In this document: positions 21,458-41,603 of the stretch, one piece after another
How positions within the stretch are numbered: position 1 is the first letter of the stretch
Layout of the letters: each line of letters begins with the position of its first letter
Assembly (NCBI GenBank): GCA_002792635.1
Contig: PFOR01000016.1
Location: 1-42,255 of the forward strand
Source: Candidatus Pacearchaeota archaeon CG_4_10_14_0_2_um_filter_35_33
GTDB taxonomy: Archaea; Nanobdellota; Nanobdellia; Pacearchaeales; GW2011-AR1
Direction of reading: 5' to 3'
Length of the DNA: 42,255 bases
Program-made: the position numbers and the translations under genes
The notes under the pieces: model-generated
The model's database searches: none
What the model was told of the DNA's origin: nothing
What the model saw: the letters and a program-made list of their open reading frames with translations, nothing else

Positions 21458-23083
21458 ATGAAAAAGAAGAAAAGAAATAATAGAGGTAATAGAAGGAATC
21501 CTAACAAGATTAAGAAGAAAGTTGTTATGGACAGAGAAGTGTTCAAAATTGAGTTGGGAAAAGTTAGTGGTAACCATATTGGAAAAACTATTCTTGTTCA
21601 GGGACTCTTAGAAAGAATTATACAGACTCCTGGACCCACATTATTTGCGTTAAATGATGGAACGGGAAGTTTAATGTTAAAGGGTTTTATCTCTCCAGGG
21701 GAAAGAGCATTTCCCGATATTAATGACGGGGATTGTATTGAAGCTAAAGTTAAACTGAAGGAATATAATGAAGCGTTTGAGGGTGAAATAATGAAGATTG
21801 AAAGTCTTACTGGAGCAAGAAAGGCAAAAGTTAGGCAAAAGATCGATGATGTTTTAAGAGAAAGAAGCAAGGCTAGAAATCCAGGGTTTATGGTTGAATC
21901 CAAGATTTTAGAAAAATTAGAAGATAGGTTTGTTAAGATTGCAACAGAAATAAAGATGGCTGTTTTGCAAAATAGACCTATAATTGTTAGACATCACAAT
22001 GATGCGGATGGTTATGCTTCAGGATATGCATTAGAAAAAGCAATTGTTCCGTTAATAGATAAACACCATGGCGGGGGAAAGAGTGCGTGGGAATTTTTCA
22101 CAAGGGCCCCGTGTTCGGCTCCGTTTTATGAAATAGATGATTCTATCAGAGATACTGCTAATTCGTTGAGAAATGTCGCAAAGTTTTCAAACAAAATGCC
22201 TTTAGTTGTTATTGCTGATAATGGTTCTAACGATCAAGATTTATTTGCGATACAACAAGGAAAGGTTCATGGCATGGATTTCATTGTCATTGATCACCAT
22301 TACTTTGAAAAAGATGTTATTTCTGAAGAGGTCTTGGTTCATATAAATCCTTTTTTAGTCGGAGAGGATGGGCAGAAATTTTCTGCAGGAATGCTTTGCT
22401 CGGAGTTAGCAAGATTTATTTCGGATGTTGAAAATGTTGAACAGATTGCGGCCATGTCTGGAATGGCTGATAGGATTGATATAATGAACCCTGGTGCTGT
22501 TAATCAATATGTTGAGCTGGCTGGAAAACAAGGATATGATAAAAAACTTTTAGCGGATATTGCTACAGTTATAGATTTTGTTTCCGCTAAATTGAGATTC
22601 ATGGAAGCTAGGGAATATATTGAAGTTTTATTTGGAGAACCGAGGGAGAAACAGAAAAAACTTGTCGGATTAATGGCACCTTATATTAAGGATTTGGAAA
22701 GAAAGGGGTTGGAAATGGCAAAGCAAGGGGCAACAACAGAAAAGAAGGGTTCTGTTGTATTACAACTATTGGATATTGAGAATAGCTTGCCTGGATTTGG
22801 TTTTTATCCTAAACCTGGAAAGACTGTTGGAATGTTGCATGATTGGATTCAGAAATCTGGAAAAGATTCCGTTGTTACAATGGGTGTTATGCCCTCAGCG
22901 ATAACAATAAGAGCGACAGATAAAGCTAATTTTTCAGTTCATGAGTTGATTAAGGAAATAGAAAAGAAGCTTCCGGGGGCGTTTGTTAATGGTGGGGGGC
23001 ATAAGAATGCTGGCTCAATTAATTTTGTTCCTGGAAAAAAAGATGATGTTATGAAAGTGGTTAGGGGTTTTGTCGGGAAGTGA
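21458..23083 (+). CDS. Archaeal RecJ-like DHH phosphoesterase with N-terminal OB-like domain
   Basis: RHHNDADGYASG, VIDHHYFEKD, C-term FVNGGGHKNAGSI. Confidence 0.85.
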   Translation: MKKKKRNNRGNRRNPNKIKKKVVMDREVFKIELGKVSGNHIGKTILVQGLLERIIQTPGPTLFALNDGTGSLMLKGFISPGERAFPDINDGDCIEAKVKLKEYNEAFEGEIMKIESLTGARKAKVRQKIDDVLRERSKARNPGFMVESKILEKLEDRFVKIATEIKMAVLQNRPIIVRHHNDADGYASGYALEKAIVPLIDKHHGGGKSAWEFFTRAPCSAPFYEIDDSIRDTANSLRNVAKFSNKMPLVVIADNGSNDQDLFAIQQGKVHGMDFIVIDHHYFEKDVISEEVLVHINPFLVGEDGQKFSAGMLCSELARFISDVENVEQIAAMSGMADRIDIMNPGAVNQYVELAGKQGYDKKLLADIATVIDFVSAKLRFMEAREYIEVLFGEPREKQKKLVGLMAPYIKDLERKGLEMAKQGATTEKKGSVVLQLLDIENSLPGFGFYPKPGKTVGMLHDWIQKSGKDSVVTMGVMPSAITIRATDKANFSVHELIKEIEKKLPGAFVNGGGHKNAGSINFVPGKKDDVMKVVRGFVGK

Positions 23084-23674
23084 TTAGGCTGTTCTAAGCG
23101 ATTTATTCTGGGCTTGAACATAATTATCGGAAACGAACCATCTGTGATTGCTTGGAAGAATATCTGGACCAAACTCTACCGAGGTTTCTCGGTTTCTTCT
23201 TCTCGATTCTTCTTTTCTTTTCCTTTTCTCTACATTGGATTTCATATAATTAAGTCCTCTTTGACAGAACTTCTGAGTTTGAGAGTCAAGACTGCCAAAA
23301 AAGTCCGATGAAATGACTCCTTGATAACCTTTCAATGCTTTGTTTGAACATTTAAAATCTATATAGTGAAATCCCGGGTCCATAATAGCTAAATTGTGTG
23401 CTGCACTTGCCGCATAATCATAGCATGCTGGCTCATCTACTCTCGCAAATATGTCCCTGGTTAAAGGGTATGCTCTTGCAGCAATAATTAAATGGTATGC
23501 TCTTGCAGCAATAATTTTTTGCCACAAGGCCTCTTCAAAATCTTTGGTTTGTTTGGCTTCTCTTCCAGCCATGTCGTGCTCTCTTGCTTCGTCAAAATCC
23601 ATTACTGGAAATTCATATGAGAGCAGAGAAAGAATATTTTCTGGCGTGATTTCTGCTGGAATATTAAGGCGCAT
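23084..23674 (-). CDS. Hypothetical protein containing a 9-aa tandem duplication
   Basis: ORF 196 aa; IIAARAYHLIIAARAYPL from a 27-bp DNA repeat. Confidence 0.55.
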   Translation of the reverse strand: MRLNIPAEITPENILSLLSYEFPVMDFDEAREHDMAGREAKQTKDFEEALWQKIIAARAYHLIIAARAYPLTRDIFARVDEPACYDYAASAAHNLAIMDPGFHYIDFKCSNKALKGYQGVISSDFFGSLDSQTQKFCQRGLNYMKSNVEKRKRKEESRRRNRETSVEFGPDILPSNHRWFVSDNYVQAQNKSLRTA

Positions 23675-28408: not shown

Positions 28409-28731
28409 GGACAGGTGTTTGTTTTTTGGATTATTTGAGAAGTTTACCGACGATAAATGCTGTTTAAACAAGTGTTTAAATTTTTTTAATTTGATTAGAA
28501 GTTTTTGCATTATTTTTTGCTGTTTATTGGGTGTTTGTTTTTTATTTTTTTCAAAAAAGTGCTTGTTTTTTATTGTTTGGACAGGTGTTTGTTTGGTAAA
28601 AGGGGTGTTTAAGGATGTTTGTTTTGAAAAAAATAAGATAAACAGGTGTCATTTATGCTATAAAATATATTTGCCATTAGGGGCTTTGAAAAGGATATAT
28701 TTATATACTAGAGCTGTTTTAAACAGGCATG
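28409..28731 (+). promoter_or_regulatory. Upstream cluster of ACAGGTGT motifs and TATA-like tract before gene 28729
   Basis: ACAGGTGT at 28411, 28581, 28642; relatives AAACAAGTGTTT (28467) and AAACAGGCATG overlapping the start codon; TATATTTATATACTA around 28697. Confidence 0.5.
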
Positions 28732-29361
28732 TTTTTTGGACTGTTTGGTAATAAAAGGGTGAAAAAGCTTGAAGATGAAACTAAAAAAAGTTTTCAGGCT
28801 GTAAAAGGTGATTTTGATAGGGTCGGAGTGTGGATTAAACACCTTGATGAGCAAGATAAACAGGTGTTTGATATTCTTGGACAGCTAAAAAGTGATATTT
28901 CGACGATAAAGGATGAACTTGAGGGGCTTAGGGATGCTGTTGAGATTATTGGATCAAGCAAGAAAATTAAACAGGTGTCCAAAAATGAGGCTGTTTATAT
29001 CAAACAACTGGGTGTTGATAGTGTCCAAAAACCTGTTCAAACAGCTGTTCAAACAGGCAATTTTCATCAAATATTGAATGGGTTGAGTTCTAATGAGAGG
29101 CTATTAGTGTTTACTTTAATGAATAGTGAGCTGAAGTTAAGTTATGAGGATTTAGCAAGATTGTTAGGAAAAGAGAGATCTACAATTAGGGGCCAAATAA
29201 ATAGCATAAAACAGAAAAGTGAGGGTCTTATTAGAGAGATTCGGGAGCCAAATGGGAAAAAGAGGGTGTTTGTAGAGGAAGAAATCAAGGAAAAACTGGT
29301 AAAATATGCAAAAGTGAGAGTTGGCAAAGGAAAGAAATTGGGAAAAAAGAAGAAAAAATAG
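28729..29361 (+). CDS. Coiled-coil plus wHTH DNA-binding protein (gene A)
   Basis: Coiled-coil N-term; LSSNERLLVFTLMNSELKLSYEDLARLLGKERSTIRGQINSIKQK; basic tail. Confidence 0.7.
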   Translation: MFFGLFGNKRVKKLEDETKKSFQAVKGDFDRVGVWIKHLDEQDKQVFDILGQLKSDISTIKDELEGLRDAVEIIGSSKKIKQVSKNEAVYIKQLGVDSVQKPVQTAVQTGNFHQILNGLSSNERLLVFTLMNSELKLSYEDLARLLGKERSTIRGQINSIKQKSEGLIREIREPNGKKRVFVEEEIKEKLVKYAKVRVGKGKKLGKKKKK

Positions 29362-29603: not shown

Positions 29604-30311
29604 TTAGATATCTCTTAGTTTTTGGATTGTTTCTAAAGACGCGAGTTCCTTAAGATTTTTTGATATTTTTAGGATAATCTTTTTGTTGTTTTCTTTTGTT
29701 TTCTCGACGGGAACTCCTTTCTTTATTATCTTACCTATGTGGTCTCTGATGGATGATTCTGTTATTTGGAGATATTGGGATAGGAGCTGGTAATCGACGA
29801 CAAGGCCTTGTTCTTCTAATTGGTATAATATTGCGAAAACTTTCATTTCTGTGCTCGTTAATGCTTGAAATTTAATACGAACTTCTTCCTTTATTTCATT
29901 AATTGTTTCTATAACTTTTGATGCTTGATTTAGCCTGTTGTCTGTCTGTCGATGTGTCTGTCTGTCTGTCGAAACCCCCTTATTTCTAGTGGAAATAACT
30001 GAATTTGAGCTTTTTACAGCTTCTAGAGGGTAATTAACTGTCGATGTGTCTGTCGATGTGTCGACAGGAAACGAAGGGGTGTCTATATTCGCCTGTCGAT
30101 GTGTCTGTCTGTCTAAGGTTCGTTTAAGCAAATTAAAGCTGACGTTATGTTCCTTTATATTTGCTTTAATTTCTTGTAATTCTTGATTCTGTTTCTCTAT
30201 TAAAGATTTAAGACCTGCTAGTTCAGTTTCTAGGTATTGGTAATTATAATATAAATTGTAAATGTCTTCCTTAGCTTTGTCGAAGGCTTGTCTTATCTTT
30301 TCTGGATTCAT
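29604..30311 (-). CDS. Coiled-coil plus wHTH DNA-binding protein (gene B), carries an internal motif array
   Basis: LTSTEMKVFAILYQLEEQGLVVDYQLLSQYLQITESSIRDHIGKIIKKG; internal DRQTHRQ / DTSTDTST repeats. Confidence 0.7.
   Translation of the reverse strand: MNPEKIRQAFDKAKEDIYNLYYNYQYLETELAGLKSLIEKQNQELQEIKANIKEHNVSFNLLKRTLDRQTHRQANIDTPSFPVDTSTDTSTVNYPLEAVKSSNSVISTRNKGVSTDRQTHRQTDNRLNQASKVIETINEIKEEVRIKFQALTSTEMKVFAILYQLEEQGLVVDYQLLSQYLQITESSIRDHIGKIIKKGVPVEKTKENNKKIILKISKNLKELASLETIQKLRDI
29937..30118. repeat. Intragenic array: four exact copies of CTGTCGATGTGT
   Basis: Copies at 29946-29957, 30038-30049, 30050-30061, 30093-30104, extended by CTGTCTGTC tracts; GTCGAC palindrome near 30062. 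Confidence 0.9.
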
Positions 30312-30335: not shown

Positions 30336-30608
30336 TTAAGGATTATTGTTCTTGAAAACCGTGAATGCTTGATTGGATAGCCTCCATCTTTGCCTGCGTT
30401 TATAATCAAGCCCTTCCGGATTCTTATTGATTTCTGTTACTAGAAATTTTGATTTCAGGTCTTGGAGAAGAGCTTTGACAAACTCTTCGTCCCGGGCTAT
30501 CTCTTGGGCTATATGGGCTGTAAATGCTGATTGAGGAGATATAGAATATAAGTGGTGCAGAATTTGTTCTTGAATCTTGGCTTGCTTCTTGTTAGATATT
30601 TTTGGCAT
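30336..30608 (-). CDS. wHTH-like hypothetical protein
   Basis: ORF 90 aa; QEQILHHLYSISPQSAFTAHIAQEIARDEEFVKALLQDLKSKFLVTEI. Confidence 0.5.
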   Translation of the reverse strand: MPKISNKKQAKIQEQILHHLYSISPQSAFTAHIAQEIARDEEFVKALLQDLKSKFLVTEINKNPEGLDYKRRQRWRLSNQAFTVFKNNNP

Positions 30609-34988: not shown

Positions 34989-35149
34989 GTTGTGAGTAAA
35001 GAGGCTTTGTATTTAAATATTATGATAATGAAAAGAATTGATTTAGGGCATTTGTTGGATAGTTAAAATAAATTTAAGGACCCTGACCCTTTGATTTCTT
35101 ATGGAAAATATGAAAGGGTTTAAATACTGGAGGTAAACAGGTTTTTTTA

Positions 35150-35296
35150 ATTTTCTTTTTTAAAGTTTATTATATTATATTATATATATTATATTAATTA
35201 TTAATTAATATATGTATTAAAACAAGAACGTTCGTTTAATTTTGTTATTTATATTTTTTAATGAAATGGTTTCCAGTGGAAATAATGGTGTAGGGT
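35150..35296. promoter_or_regulatory. Candidate replication origin: AT-rich tract plus ORB-like palindrome
   Basis: TTATATTATATTATATATATTATATTAATTATTAATTAATATATG tract; TTTCCAGTGGAAA at 35270-35282 followed by TAATGGTGTAGGG; directly upstream of orc1/cdc6. Confidence 0.6.
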
Positions 35297-35413: not shown

Positions 35414-36622
35414 ATGGCACAGAAATTAGATAAAATATTTGATTCTTTTGTTGAAAATAATTTGTTTAAGGATAAGAGGGTTTTACAAACTAATTATACC
35501 CCCGATACTATTCCTCATAGGGATAATCAGATAGAAAATGTGGCTTCTATTCTTGCGCCCGCCCTTAGGGGAGACAGGGTGAGTAATTTGTTTATTTATG
35601 GGAAGACGGGGACTGGCAAGACATTAAGTGTTCAACATGTTACTAATGAATTAATGAAAAGGGTTAGCGATAGCAAAAGTGATAATCTAAAGGTGGTTTA
35701 TATTAATTGTAAGTTAAAAAAGATTGCAGATACAGAATATAGGATTCTTGCAGAAATAATAAATAGTTTAGGCGGCAGCGTTCCTATCACAGGCCTCCCT
35801 ACTGATGCAGTTTATAATAAGTTTGTGGATATGATTGATGATAAGAGGCAAAATGTTATTTTAATTTTGGATGAGGTTGATCAAGCGATTAAGAAAATAA
35901 GCGATAGCTTTCTTTATACATTAACAAGATTAAATAGTGACTTGAAGAATGCACAAATTGGAATAGTTGGCATTAGCAATAGTCTAACGTTTATGGATTG
36001 TTTAGACCCAAGGGTGAGGAGCAGTTTAGGCGAAGAAGAGTTGGTTTTTCCTCCTTATAATGCATTACAATTAATTGATATATTGAGAGAGCGATCTAAG
36101 ACTGCGTTTGTTGATGGTGTTTTAGGTGAGGAAGTTATTTCTAAGTGTGCTGCATATGCGGCCAGAGAACATGGAGATGCAAGAAGGGCTTTGGACTTAT
36201 TGAGGGTTGCAGGGGAACTGGCCGAGAGGACACAAAGCAAAAAAATAGAAGAAAAGCATATTGATGAGGCGAATAGTAAAATAGAAAAGGATAAAATGTT
36301 AGACATTATTGAAAATGAGCCAAGGCAGTTCCAGTTAGTTTTAATGGCTATAATGGATTTGACTGAAGATAAGAATTTTGATAAGATTTATACCGGAAAT
36401 ATTTATAATAAATATCAGGAAATTTGTGAAAAAACTAAGAATGAGATTTTAACACAGAGAAGGATTAGTGATATTATTGCTGAGTTTGACATGTTAGGCA
36501 TTATTAATGCAGACGTTGTGAGTAAAGGAAGGCAGGGCAGGACAAGAGTGATTAAGCTTATGTTATCTGAAAGTTTAAAGAAAAAAGCAAGAGAGATTTT
36601 ACTAGGCAATTTAAATATATGA
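35414..36622 (+). CDS. cdc6: Origin recognition protein Orc1/Cdc6
   Basis: LFIYGKTGTGKTLSVQHV, LILDEVDQ, GISNSLTFMDCLDPRVRSSL. Confidence 0.95.
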   Translation: MAQKLDKIFDSFVENNLFKDKRVLQTNYTPDTIPHRDNQIENVASILAPALRGDRVSNLFIYGKTGTGKTLSVQHVTNELMKRVSDSKSDNLKVVYINCKLKKIADTEYRILAEIINSLGGSVPITGLPTDAVYNKFVDMIDDKRQNVILILDEVDQAIKKISDSFLYTLTRLNSDLKNAQIGIVGISNSLTFMDCLDPRVRSSLGEEELVFPPYNALQLIDILRERSKTAFVDGVLGEEVISKCAAYAAREHGDARRALDLLRVAGELAERTQSKKIEEKHIDEANSKIEKDKMLDIIENEPRQFQLVLMAIMDLTEDKNFDKIYTGNIYNKYQEICEKTKNEILTQRRISDIIAEFDMLGIINADVVSKGRQGRTRVIKLMLSESLKKKAREILLGNLNI

Positions 36623-36628
36623 TGTTAA

Positions 36629-38179
36629 ATGAAGGATGAAATACTTAGTTTGGTTAGGGAGAAGGGTCTTTTATTAGAGAAAGCTTTGTTTGAAGTTTTA
36701 GATAGTTTTGACAGCCTTCAGGATGCTCGTGATTTTTTAGAGGGTTTGGAAAAAGCTTCTGGGAATAAGGTAATTACAGTTTCTAACCTATCTAAAAATT
36801 TTGAATATGTAAAAGAAGTAGTTAATCATTTACCCGGACAGGAGAGAGAAGTCGTGGAGAGATTTCTTGTTAAAGGAGGATTAAATTTAGAGATTACTAA
36901 AGAGAGAGAAGTCGTGGAGACGAAACCGACAAGGAAACTTGACTATAAGGTATTTTATGCTGATGGGAATAATGCTCGGAAGATAGAAGTGAGGGATTTT
37001 GTTTCCCATTTTAGAGTAAGATATCAAGCCTTACAAAGGATTTTAATGGCCCGGCCAGAGGTTCAACAGAATTTGATTTCACTAAATAAATTGGGAGTGA
37101 ATAGAGAAAGCTTTGTTTTTATTGGAATAGTCGCGGAGAAAAGAATTACAAAAAATAAAAATTTAATCATAAAGTTTGAGGACTTGACAGGTGAAATAAA
37201 TGCACTTGTTAAACCAGATAGTGATTGTTTTAAAGAGGTTAATGAATTGCAGATGGATGATGTGGTTGCTGTAAAAGCTTCTGGGAATAAGGAATTAGCA
37301 TTCATTTATAATATTTTTTGGCCTGAATCTATTTTGTTGGATAAAACTAGGTTTGATGAAGAGGTATGCGTTGCATTTTTGTCAGATATTCATGCAGGAA
37401 GTAAGAATCACCTTGGTAAGGAATTTCAGAAATTTATAAATTGGTTGAACGAGGATGAATTGGCTAAGAAAATAAAATATATGTTTCTTGTCGGGGATAA
37501 TATTGATGGCGTCGGTATTTTTCCAGGTCAAGAAAGACTTCTCGAAAGGACTAGTGCTAAGGAGCAGTATGAAATGCTTTCAGAATATTTAAAACAAGTT
37601 CCAAAAAACATAACTATGTTTATGTGTCCGGGACAACACGACGCGGTTAGGGTTCCTGAACCCCAACCAGTTATTGGAAGAGATTATGGGGAGGCTTTGT
37701 ATGATATTGATAATTTGGTTTTGGTTTCCAATCCTGCGATGGTTAAGTTGATGGAAAAGGATAAGGAGTTCAAGGTTTTGATGTACCATGGTGCGAGCAT
37801 TCATGTGTTCATTAATGAAATTGAAGAATTAAGATTGATGAAAGCTCATAAATGTCCGGCCAAGGCTATCAAACATATGTTAAAGAGAAGACATTTAGCG
37901 CCTATGCATGGGGTGGCTCATTCTATTGTTTATGTACCTCATTTGGAAAAAGACCCCTTGGTAATAGAGGAGGTTCCAGATGTTTTATGTATGGGAGAGG
38001 TGCACAGGTTGGATATCGATAGCTATAATGGTGTTAGGATAATTACTGGGAGTTGCTGGCAATCTCAGACAGAATATGAAGAAAAAATAGGGAATGTCCC
38101 AGAAGCATGCAAGGTCTCTATTTTAAATTTAAAGACAGGAGAAATAAAAATTTTAGACTTTAGCGAAGATGAAAACTAA
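36629..38179 (+). CDS. polB: DNA polymerase D small subunit DP1
   Basis: FLSDIHAGS, LVGDNIDGVG, PGQHDAVR, YHGASIH, calcineurin-like DP1 motifs. Confidence 0.93.
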   Translation: MKDEILSLVREKGLLLEKALFEVLDSFDSLQDARDFLEGLEKASGNKVITVSNLSKNFEYVKEVVNHLPGQEREVVERFLVKGGLNLEITKEREVVETKPTRKLDYKVFYADGNNARKIEVRDFVSHFRVRYQALQRILMARPEVQQNLISLNKLGVNRESFVFIGIVAEKRITKNKNLIIKFEDLTGEINALVKPDSDCFKEVNELQMDDVVAVKASGNKELAFIYNIFWPESILLDKTRFDEEVCVAFLSDIHAGSKNHLGKEFQKFINWLNEDELAKKIKYMFLVGDNIDGVGIFPGQERLLERTSAKEQYEMLSEYLKQVPKNITMFMCPGQHDAVRVPEPQPVIGRDYGEALYDIDNLVLVSNPAMVKLMEKDKEFKVLMYHGASIHVFINEIEELRLMKAHKCPAKAIKHMLKRRHLAPMHGVAHSIVYVPHLEKDPLVIEEVPDVLCMGEVHRLDIDSYNGVRIITGSCWQSQTEYEEKIGNVPEACKVSILNLKTGEIKILDFSEDEN

Positions 38180-41100
38180 TTCCCATTTTGCACGTATAAA
38201 AAAGAAAGTTGATGAATATTATAATGTAGCAGAATCTGCACGTAGCAAGGGTTTGGATCCTGTTTCAAAAGTAGAGGTTCCTATCGCAAGCTCCTTGGCG
38301 GAAAAGGCCGTTGGGTTGATATCTGTTATGTATCCCCAATTACAGGATAAAAAGATTGTAAATCGGATATTGGAGCTGGAAAAAAAATATGGTCAATTAA
38401 GTATTTCTGTTTCAATGTTAATTGCCGAGGATATAGCAAAAGAAAAGTATTGTAAATTTAAAGATAAGATTGAGGCAATCGATGCAGGGGTAAGAGTTGG
38501 TTTTTCATATACTACTCTAGGTGTTGTTTCAAGCCCATTAGAGGGATTTACAGGTCTAAAATTAGGTAAGACAAGAGACGGGAGAGATTATTTCAAGGCT
38601 TATTTTTCTGGCCCTATTAGAAGCGCAGGAACCACCGCAGGGTGTGTTGTTTTGATGATTATCGATTATTTAAGAGAAATATTTGGTTATGCTAAATATG
38701 ATCCAAGTGAGGAAGAGGTTAAGAGATATATTACGGAAAATTATGATTATCATGAGAGAGTCACGAATTTACAGTATTTGCCTACGGAAGAAGAGATAAC
38801 TTTCCTTGCAAGGAGGCTCCCTATTCAAATTTCTGGTGAGCCTACTGAACAAAGAGAGGTTTCAAATTACAAGGATTTGGATAGAATTGAAACTAATTTT
38901 ATTAGGGGGGGAATGTGTTTGATTTTTTCTGAAGGTTTAGCACAGAAAGCTGCCAAAGGGTGGCGTTTGTTGAAGGGGGCAAAGGAGAAAGGCTTGCAAT
39001 CTTCGGGATGGAATTGGTTAGATGAATATATTGAATTACATTCTAAGAGGGAAAAGAAGGGGGATGATAGCAGTCCTACTTATATCAAAGATCTTGTTGC
39101 AGGAAGGCCCGTGTTTGGACATCCAGGTTCTTCAGGAAGTTTTAGGTTTAGATATGGAAGAGGAAGAACTTCTGGATTTTCTGCCACTTCGGTTCATCCA
39201 GCAACTATGGCTATTACAGACGGGTTCATTTCTTTTGGAACACAGTTAAAGATAGAAAAACCAACTAAGGGGTGTGCAGTTTCGTCTTGCGAAGGCATAG
39301 ATGGGCCAATTGTTAAATTGAGTGATGGAAGTGTTAGAAAACTCAAGGATTTTGATGAGGCTAAGAAAGTTTATTCTGATGTAGATGAAATAATTTATCT
39401 TGGGGATTTGTTGATGCCTTTTGGTGATGTTGCTAATAGAAACTATGATTTACTTAAATCAGGATATGTTGAGGAATGGTGGGCATTGGAAATGGAAAAA
39501 GCTGGAAAAAAAATAGATGATGAAAAGAATGTTAGTTTTGAAGACGCCTTAAATTATTCTGATAAATTTAACGTGCCCTTACATCCAAATTATATTTTTT
39601 ATTGGACCCAGATAACCTTGAAGGACTTTTATGGGTTGATTGATTGGATTGCTAGAGGTGTTGTCAAAGGAGATGATTTAATCTTACCATTTTCTTCAAA
39701 AAATATGGAACGCTTTGAAAAGGGGAAGAGAACTTTGGAGCTGATAGGTTGCGAGCATAGTATAGGAGTGGAAAATGTTATTGTTAAGGGAAGTGAGGCA
39801 AAATCGCTTTTAACAAATCTAGGATTGGAATTCAAGGAAGGAGATTTGGAAAAAAATGTTGATGAAATTATAAAGAAGATGGATAAAGAAAAAGGCGTTT
39901 TAGAAAATATTAATCTTTTTTCAAGATTTAAAATTAAAGATAAGGCTGGGTCTTTTATCGGGGCAAGAATGGGCAGACCTGAAAAGGCAAAATTAAGAAA
40001 ATTAACGGGAAGTCCACATGTATTGTTTCCCGTTGGTGTTGAAGGAGGGAGATTAAGAAGTGTTCAAGCTGCTTATGAGGTTGGGAGGGTTAAGGCAGAG
40101 TTTCCTAATTATTTTTGTAAAAAGTGTGAAGAAGAAAGCGTTTACCCCAAATGTGTGAAATGTGGCGAGAGTTGCAAGAAAATGCATTATTGTTTTGTTT
40201 GTGGAAGGAGTTCAGATGACAAATGTAAACAGCATGAAAGAGACTCGCAGTATAGGGAGAGGAGAATAGATATTAGACACTATTTTGATGTGGCTAAGAA
40301 GTCTACAGGAGTCCGGTTAGATGATCTGCCCGTCGCGGTTAAAGGCGTTAGGGGGACAAGCTCAGAAGAGCACGATTGTGAAAATCTTGCAAAAGGCTTG
40401 TTGAGGGCCAAATATGACTTGCATGTGAATAAGGATGGCACCATAAGATATGATGTTACTGAAATGCCTATAACTCACTTTAAGTCCGTGGAAATTGGTA
40501 CAAGTATAGAAAAACTAAAGGAGTTAGGATATACTGAAGATGTGAATGGGGCTGAATTGGTTTCTGGAGATCAGACAGTTGAATTATTCCCTCACGATAT
40601 TATTTTACCTTCTTGTCCTGTTACACAAGATGAAAGGGCTGATGATGTGTTTGTGAATGTGGCTAAATTTGTTGATGATGAATTAGAAAAAATTTACAGG
40701 TTACCCAGATTTTTCAATGTTGAAACAAGAGATGATTTAATCGGCACTTTATTTGCTTGCATCGCACCACATATCTGTACCGCAACAGTTGGAAGACTGA
40801 TTGGATTTTCTAAAACCCAAAGTTTGCTCGCAAGTCCCTACATGCATGCAGCCATGAGAAGGGATTGTGATGGAGATGAAGCAGCAGTTATCTTATTGAT
40901 GGATACTCTTGTTAATTTCTCCAGGAAATTTTTGCCCGCCCATAGAGGTGGTACACAGGATGCTCCGCTTGTTTTAAACTTTAAAATTAATGCAGGAGAG
41001 GTTGATGACCAGATACTGGATTTTGATTGTGGCAGTTATCCTTTAGAATTATACGAGTTTTCAGAACAAGGAAAACATTCTTCAGAGGTTAAGATTGAAA

Positions 41101-41603
41101 TGATAAGTGACAGGTTGAGAGATGGAAAAGACCCTTATACAGGAATAGGCTTTACTCATAAAACAGACAATTTTAATAATGGGTGTTTGAATTCATCTTA
41201 TAAGTTTTTACCCACAATGGAAGACAAAGTGAGCAAGATGATGGCGCTTTGTGAAAAAATTAGAGCTGTGGATACAACAGATGTTGCCCGATTGGTTATA
41301 GAAAGGCACTTTATTAGGGATACAAAAGGCAATTTTAGAAAATTTTCAATGCAATCTTTTAGGTGCGTAGGTTGTAATAGCAAGTTCAGGAGACCTCCCT
41401 TAACGGGAAGATGTACTAATTGTGGAGGAAAGATAATATTTACTATTTCCGAGGGCAGTATCATCAAGTATTTAGAAAAGGCCTTGAGATTGGCCAGGGA
41501 TTACCATGTAAGCGAATACCTATTAGAATGTCTTGAGCTGACAAAGAAGGATATCGAGAGCATGTTTGGAAAGGAGAAAGAGAAACAGACTACTTTGTTT
41601 TAA
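38169..41603 (+). CDS. polC: DNA polymerase D large subunit DP2
   Basis: 1144 aa; ARMGRPEKAK, HAAMRRDCDGDEAAVILLMDTLVNFS; Zn-binding Cys clusters; no intein seen. Confidence 0.95.
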   Translation: MKTNSHFARIKKKVDEYYNVAESARSKGLDPVSKVEVPIASSLAEKAVGLISVMYPQLQDKKIVNRILELEKKYGQLSISVSMLIAEDIAKEKYCKFKDKIEAIDAGVRVGFSYTTLGVVSSPLEGFTGLKLGKTRDGRDYFKAYFSGPIRSAGTTAGCVVLMIIDYLREIFGYAKYDPSEEEVKRYITENYDYHERVTNLQYLPTEEEITFLARRLPIQISGEPTEQREVSNYKDLDRIETNFIRGGMCLIFSEGLAQKAAKGWRLLKGAKEKGLQSSGWNWLDEYIELHSKREKKGDDSSPTYIKDLVAGRPVFGHPGSSGSFRFRYGRGRTSGFSATSVHPATMAITDGFISFGTQLKIEKPTKGCAVSSCEGIDGPIVKLSDGSVRKLKDFDEAKKVYSDVDEIIYLGDLLMPFGDVANRNYDLLKSGYVEEWWALEMEKAGKKIDDEKNVSFEDALNYSDKFNVPLHPNYIFYWTQITLKDFYGLIDWIARGVVKGDDLILPFSSKNMERFEKGKRTLELIGCEHSIGVENVIVKGSEAKSLLTNLGLEFKEGDLEKNVDEIIKKMDKEKGVLENINLFSRFKIKDKAGSFIGARMGRPEKAKLRKLTGSPHVLFPVGVEGGRLRSVQAAYEVGRVKAEFPNYFCKKCEEESVYPKCVKCGESCKKMHYCFVCGRSSDDKCKQHERDSQYRERRIDIRHYFDVAKKSTGVRLDDLPVAVKGVRGTSSEEHDCENLAKGLLRAKYDLHVNKDGTIRYDVTEMPITHFKSVEIGTSIEKLKELGYTEDVNGAELVSGDQTVELFPHDIILPSCPVTQDERADDVFVNVAKFVDDELEKIYRLPRFFNVETRDDLIGTLFACIAPHICTATVGRLIGFSKTQSLLASPYMHAAMRRDCDGDEAAVILLMDTLVNFSRKFLPAHRGGTQDAPLVLNFKINAGEVDDQILDFDCGSYPLELYEFSEQGKHSSEVKIEMISDRLRDGKDPYTGIGFTHKTDNFNNGCLNSSYKFLPTMEDKVSKMMALCEKIRAVDTTDVARLVIERHFIRDTKGNFRKFSMQSFRCVGCNSKFRRPPLTGRCTNCGGKIIFTISEGSIIKYLEKALRLARDYHVSEYLLECLELTKKDIESMFGKEKEKQTTLF

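Follow-up and report, generated by a model that had tools for sequence, protein, structure and literature searches.

Several described systems resemble one part or another of the locus reported here. In phage lambda, the gene of the origin-binding protein O carries repeated sites for its own product within the coding sequence (PMC6022878). Sulfolobus WhiP is a Cdt1-related winged-helix protein encoded beside oriC3 and specific for that origin (PMC4010727), and at Sulfolobus oriC1 the small non-initiator protein UBP has a motif of its own (ucm) beside the origin recognition boxes (ORBs); UBP is a nucleoid protein with hundreds of sites (PMC12141716). In Haloarcula hispanica, oriC2D comprises 11 intergenic ORBs downstream of cdc6E, off the origin proper, and has a negative regulatory role through Cdc6 titration (PMC3936714). 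In bacteria, the DnaA box and DnaA-trio (BUS) combine a duplex box with a short oligonucleotide repeated in tandem behind it (PMC8287927); the repeats of the trio are trinucleotides, which DnaA binds as a single strand. The common archaeal ORB of DoriC reads TCCA[CG]T[TG]GAAA[TC][GA]AAGGGGT, and Ori-Finder 2 scans intergenic DNA only (PMC4164010), so that an ORB located in a coding sequence would be missed.

We analyzed a window of 42,255 bp (the whole stretch of DNA under study), which is contig 12 of a genome of 777 kb (89% complete), by computation throughout, and compared it with Candidatus Pacearchaeota and other DPANN archaea. All sequences compared are metagenome-assembled, and the class-level genomes are a sample rather than an exhaustive set. 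The following genes are central to this report:

28729..29361, plus strand: gene A (helix 5-77, disordered linker 78-110, winged helix 113-182)
29604..30311, minus strand: gene B, convergent with A and its paralogue (helix 3-69, disordered linker 70-115, winged helix about 153-223)
35414..36622, plus strand: orc1/cdc6 replication initiator gene
36629..41603, plus strand: DNA polymerase D subunits DP1 and DP2

The comparison revealed DNA-level selection on a motif array in each of genes A and B, an ORB in the DNA encoding the linker of B, covariation between the array of gene B and the recognition helix of its product, and linkage of the pair to orc1/cdc6. A preliminary description of this DNA had noticed the two arrays; the ORB, the covariation and the linkage were absent from it. 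Actual binding, a role in replication and the direction of any effect are what we infer from these patterns.

As in lambda O, repeats lie inside the genes; those of A and B are selected as DNA, and for B the covariation argues for self-binding. Unlike lambda O, A and B form a winged-helix paralogue pair on a cellular archaeal chromosome, with an Orc1/Cdc6 box embedded in gene B. The likeness is one of layout. With WhiP they share a winged helix and a gene position near an origin, but they are short coiled-coil/winged helix-turn-helix (wHTH) proteins with intragenic arrays, in contrast to the Cdt1-related protein described. UBP resembles them in being small, in not being an initiator and in having a private motif near ORBs, whereas strict A-type sites are nearly limited to the gene of A itself. 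The likeness to the DnaA-trio is an analogy only: in gene B, too, a short oligonucleotide repeated in tandem comes after a recognition box, but the period is four rather than three nucleotides, and the protein with which the repeat unit co-varies has a winged helix and is no AAA+ initiator. To our knowledge, no DnaA is to be expected in an archaeon.

Orthologues of gene A were found in 67 of 92 relatives, nearly all from its own order and with one copy per genome. Throughout the order B is the tail-to-tail neighbour of A, and the two genes are present or absent jointly. AlphaFold2 models of both proteins start with a long helix and end in a winged helix, with a disordered linker between the two, and the winged-helix domains are homologous (hhalign 96.8%, E 2.5e-10), which bears out the earlier claim of one shared layout (coiled coil plus wHTH). 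A Pfam search assigned neither protein to any family above cut-off, profile searches against the PDB returned coiled coils and generic HTH only, and the nearest folds in Foldseek were all generic winged helices (AbfR2/Lrs14 type and MarR type); such folds fit transcription regulators equally well. Most likely, the paralogues A and B are DNA-binding proteins (coiled coil, disordered linker, winged helix) that would form a conserved module of the chromosomal origin domain.

The preliminary description had placed copies of a motif, ACAGGTGT, upstream of and within gene A, and the positions listed there hold to within one base. All five copies in the window (28411, 28581, 28642, 28860 and 28971) lie at gene A within 568 bp, compared with 0.45 expected, and none of 100 shuffles reached five. 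Measured against the genome, which holds 17 copies in 777 kb, this short segment contains five and the remaining 776 kb only 12. The core is better described as a dyad, ACA-SS-TGT, of which ACAGGTGT is one half and TTAAACAGSTGTTTAA the extended form. Loose 12-mers (3 mismatches allowed) showed no window-wide enrichment, and the signal is thus carried by the strict dyad alone. The sites at gene A are:

28409..28420, plus strand: upstream A-type dyad, GGACAGGTGTTT
28466..28477, plus strand: upstream A-type dyad, AAACAAGTGTTT, with positional counterparts in orthologues
28579..28590, plus strand: upstream A-type dyad, GGACAGGTGTTT, with positional counterparts in orthologues
28640..28651, plus strand: upstream A-type dyad, AAACAGGTGTCA, with positional counterparts in orthologues
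28700..28707, plus strand: TATA box, TTTATATA, 29 bp before the ATG and at the same place in most of 53 orthologues
28721..28732, plus strand: half-dyad over the start codon, AAACAGGCATGT, weak (3 mismatches)
28858..28869, plus strand: perfect coding dyad, AAACAGGTGTTT, read K-Q-V-F
28969..28980, plus strand: coding dyad, AAACAGGTGTCC, read K-Q-V-S
29032..29057, plus strand: double dyad with a 12-bp period in the linker, encoding P-VQT-A-VQT-G (conserved as VQT[AGP]VQT, with GCT, GGT or CCT as the codon of the variable residue)

Two further details of the preliminary description were recovered: the related form over the start codon is present as AAACAGGCATG over the ATG at 28729, and the near-palindrome encoding PVQTAVQT at 29032-29057 as CCTGTTCAAACAGCTGTTCAAACAGG.

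Comparison of orthologues shows that selection acts on the array of gene A as DNA. The linker has the form VQT-x-VQT-x-VQT in 57 orthologues, where x is almost only Ala, Gly or Pro and its codon (GCT, GGT or CCT) supplies the two central S bases of the dyad. These 57 coding sequences contain 177 ACASSTGT dyads, i.e. 3-6 times as many as under a synonymous null (29.1 ± 4.6, max 44) or a codon-permuted null (58.5, max 79). Two frames are used: frame 0 gives T[AGP]V for 127 dyads, and frame 2 gives KQ[VL][FS] for 48. The extended form TTAAACAGSTGTTTAA also recurs upstream of the orthologues, where AACANNTGTT reaches 2.26 per kb, compared with 0.01 per kb in flanking genes. The shuffles, the genome count, the synonymous nulls and this upstream density together led us to reject chance clustering.

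The array would have lost its meaning if orthologues had kept the domains and shed the clusters. Within the order they did not: among 53 orthologues, 50 keep coding dyads, 44 upstream dyads and 42 both; upstream sites fall mainly at -90 to -240, and coding sites mainly at residues 80-110. At class level the picture differs, with many distant homologues of A retaining the domains but lacking an ACASSTGT array. Both the recognition helix of A and the dyad are nearly invariant within the order, and it is the position of the dyads that suggests binding by A. Across the genome, hardly any strict sites occur away from gene A. We rejected a wide regulon, as there are few strict dyads elsewhere and the closest outside pair is inside a membrane-protein gene, not in a promoter.

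Two minor observations concern A-type dyads at other places. In some genomes (L164; G010) extra copies occur up to 3 kb upstream of gene A. The outside pair mentioned above (L005 1501-1550; G000:C10:10381-10432) comprises two such dyads 42 bp apart in the membrane-protein gene, far from A and probably by chance.

Gene B contains motifs of a different kind:

29975..29995, minus strand: ORB (Orc1/Cdc6 box) inside gene B, TTTCCACTAGAAATAAGGGGG, matching the DoriC common ORB (PMC4164010)
29935..29972, minus strand: (GACA)n array, directly after the G-string of the ORB
30038..30115, minus strand: further copies of the gene B motif, of the TGTCGATGTGTC type

The linker box reads TTTCCA-NN-GGAAAT-NNN-GGGGT; it has the dyad (TTTCCA-NN-GGAAA), the G-string (GGGGT) and the proximity to orc1/cdc6 by which an archaeal ORB is recognized. 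In these respects it equals the ORBs of archaeal origins of the oriC1 type dependent on Orc1-Cdc6. In contrast to known ORBs, which have been described and searched for in intergenic DNA (PMC4164010), it is fixed in a coding sequence. ORB plus G4 was present in 62 of 65 order-level orthologues of B, compared with 1.4 under the synonymous null (max 5). The codons follow the box: all 65 orthologues use TCC for Ser and 64 use GGG for the last Gly, whereas the codon in the spacer varies freely. The most distant matches to the B profile (L292-L300), which we did not class as B, contained no ORB. In one single-contig genome (G059) the gene B box is the only one with a GGGGT G-string, the other consensus box lying just upstream of orc1/cdc6; in a second (G068) the ORBs of strict pattern are a pair upstream of orc1/cdc6; and in a third (G132) the gene B ORB is degenerate. 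From the match to the consensus, occupancy of the gene B box by Orc1/Cdc6 is predicted. In some genomes (L063, L059) gene B contains another ORB-like box, TCCANNGGAAATAGAGGGGTT, which precedes the main one by about 40 bp.

The array adjoining the ORB changes across the class while the ORB itself stays constant. The tetramer is GACA in the order to which this genome belongs, whereas the remaining families of the class have AACA, ATCA, TTCA, CTCA or CGCA. We labelled each array by the simple majority of its NNCA words and compared the labels with 108 columns of the C-terminal domain of B. The highest mutual information (1.72 bits, z 13.9) was found for the residue that follows the invariant Arg of the recognition helix, and the second-ranked column (z 11.4) lies three residues before it; within-family permutation gave p values of 0.001 and 0.002, respectively. 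The pairs are (i) SSIRD with GACA, (ii) GCIRT with TTCA, (iii) GCIRG with ATCA, (iv) SG[IV]RS with CTCA or CGCA, and (v) SSIRG with AACA. Though indirect, this covariation argues strongly that B reads the array located in its own gene. In some class-level B genes (L224, L228, L272, L274, L276 and L282) the period of the array is not 4 (AATCATCAAC, GTCAACA), and the helices differ accordingly.

The preliminary description had proposed a repeated design, in which each gene has a private intragenic array, that of A spanning promoter, start codon and gene body. Its substance stands: the wHTH domains are homologous, the genes lie tail to tail order-wide, and the DNA of each linker holds an array that is selected as DNA and differs between A and B. 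The promoter span holds for A but not for B, as no array was found upstream of gene B, and the class-level loss of the ACASSTGT array limits the scheme further.

Wherever A/B and orc1/cdc6 are on one contig, in the order as in the class, the distance between them is 3-33 kb, and by this linkage the pair belongs to the predicted origin domain. A second set of origin-like features lies upstream of orc1/cdc6:

35095..35107, minus strand: ORB-like box of the intergenic oriC candidate
35150..35220, no strand assigned: AT-rich tract, a likely unwinding element of the intergenic oriC
35270..35282, plus strand: ORB upstream of orc1/cdc6, TTTCCAGTGGAAA

This region (35095-35282), in which ORB-like boxes lie on either side of the AT-rich tract, is a candidate for a classical intergenic oriC. 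An AT-rich tract with one or two ORBs is usual upstream of orc1/cdc6, and most of the relatives compared (L164-L183) are similar. Gene B usually has a single ORB and no AT peak, in contrast to an oriC, in which ORBs flank an AT-rich element. The strongest AT tract and the second ORB set make unwinding likelier upstream of orc1/cdc6. Disparity curves of the three single-contig genomes were noisy, and their extrema fell at distances from the locus that ranged, curve by curve, from 0.4 to 80 kb. In G059 the GC minimum is at 466,959 and A at 453,552 (13 kb apart); in G068 only the MK minimum (507,018) is near A (508,819), 1.8 kb away, with the GC minimum at 436,783; in G132 the RY minimum (270,503) is close to cdc6 (270,933) and 16 kb from B. 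GC and other skews therefore do not discriminate between gene B and the region upstream of cdc6 as the start.

The reading we favor, and consider fairly probable, is that A and B constitute an intragenic, self-binding nucleoprotein module of the oriC domain, in which the site of B adjoins that of Orc1/Cdc6 and which acts in or on initiation. A would bind TTAAACAGSTGTTTAA-type dyads on both sides of its own promoter (upstream and in the linker code), and B the tandem tetranucleotide array directly adjoining the ORB within its gene. The composite nucleoprotein would gather B, and probably A, with Orc1/Cdc6 beside oriC, and would act in initiation or control it, serving either as an accessory element of the origin or as a control site that titrates the initiator or works by looping. 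Self-binding would make the expression of both genes self-limiting. Haloarcula oriC2D provides a precedent for control by separate ORBs (PMC3936714): there, as here, ORBs lie apart from the origin proper and close to cdc6, although gene B has one intragenic ORB together with a B-specific array.

A bolder version, which we advance tentatively and regard as possible though doubtful, would place inside gene B a functional site at which replication starts or is licensed, throughout one class of DPANN archaea. The ORB and a tetranucleotide tract read by the encoded wHTH would form this site, box, tract and helix co-evolving as an archaeal counterpart of DnaA box and DnaA-trio, and A would repeat the scheme with its own dyads.

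Among the alternatives, plain autoregulation deserves the most attention, even though we judge it unlikely. Here A and B would be transcription factors with sites in and around their own genes, the operators looping over the promoter, and Orc1/Cdc6 would only repress or sense B, with no role in replication. The dyads of A indeed flank the TATA box (about -90 to -240 on one side, coding residues 80-110 on the other), so looping would be possible; the TATA box about 29 bp before the ATG indicates that the gene A transcript is probably leaderless. The near-restriction of strict sites to gene A and the regulator-type folds also accord with autoregulation. It does not account for gene B, which has no array upstream, and would not lead one to expect a class-wide consensus ORB beside the B array or constant linkage to orc1/cdc6.

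Bacterial parS sites are located near oriC, and A and B might similarly be centromere-binding proteins, the arrays forming a chromosome centromere beside the origin. Site clusters near the origin, the coiled coils and the extra dyads upstream of gene A in some genomes would suit such a role. We nevertheless hold it to be quite improbable: ParA/MinD-type ATPases are present but unlinked to A/B (PF13614 matches fall either on different contigs or at distances of at least about 50 kb), Pfam detected no ParB/CTPase domain in either protein, and the embedded ORB would be left unexplained.

Given repetitive linkers (VQTxVQT, TDRQTDRQ) and a B array that consists of tandem tetranucleotides, the DNA motifs might be by-products of conserved peptides or of slippage in low-complexity microsatellites. 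This is very improbable, since synonymous nulls were rejected for both genes, the A dyad occurs in two frames and in upstream non-coding DNA, the ORB codons are invariant while the adjacent amino acid is free, the linkers are predicted to be disordered, and the B helix covaries with the array; the nulls and the two-frame use led us to reject protein-level repeats as the cause. The layout of lambda O with ori inside gene O (PMC6022878) and the captured origins known in archaea (PMC4010727) bring to mind that the locus might be what is left of a replicon captured from a plasmid or virus and bearing intragenic iterons. This is extremely improbable given a single-copy pair that keeps one position next to orc1/cdc6 across the order and up to the class, although an ancient capture is conceivable, and a scan of viral contigs confirmed no relative.

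Our survey of the open-licence literature, which as negative evidence is weak, found neither a description of any DPANN origin nor the present combination of a class-wide coding ORB, a helix-covarying tetranucleotide array and a paralogue pair with private arrays. DPANN origins are essentially uncharacterized, and the locus supplies a concrete candidate, found class-wide, for a pair of proteins that control an archaeal origin. It suggests that a replication-control element can reside inside genes, out of view of origin finders, and in it the DNA sites embedded in the code of the protein linkers dictate their sequence. The many co-varying helix-array combinations amount to a natural experiment, from which a binding code could be tested in vitro.

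The wider neighborhood includes other genes of interest. An Lhr-type helicase gene is located downstream of A/B, as are orc1/cdc6 and both DNA polymerase D subunits. About 6 kb upstream of gene A (21458-23083) is a replication-type gene for a DHH/DHHA1 family protein with an OB-fold match (RecJ/GAN-like). A small ORF on the minus strand upstream of gene B (30336-30608) has weak matches, below cut-off, to EarA and HrcA-type winged helices, and a small unannotated ORF contains a near-perfect 27-bp tandem repeat (2.1 copies, 23461-23516).
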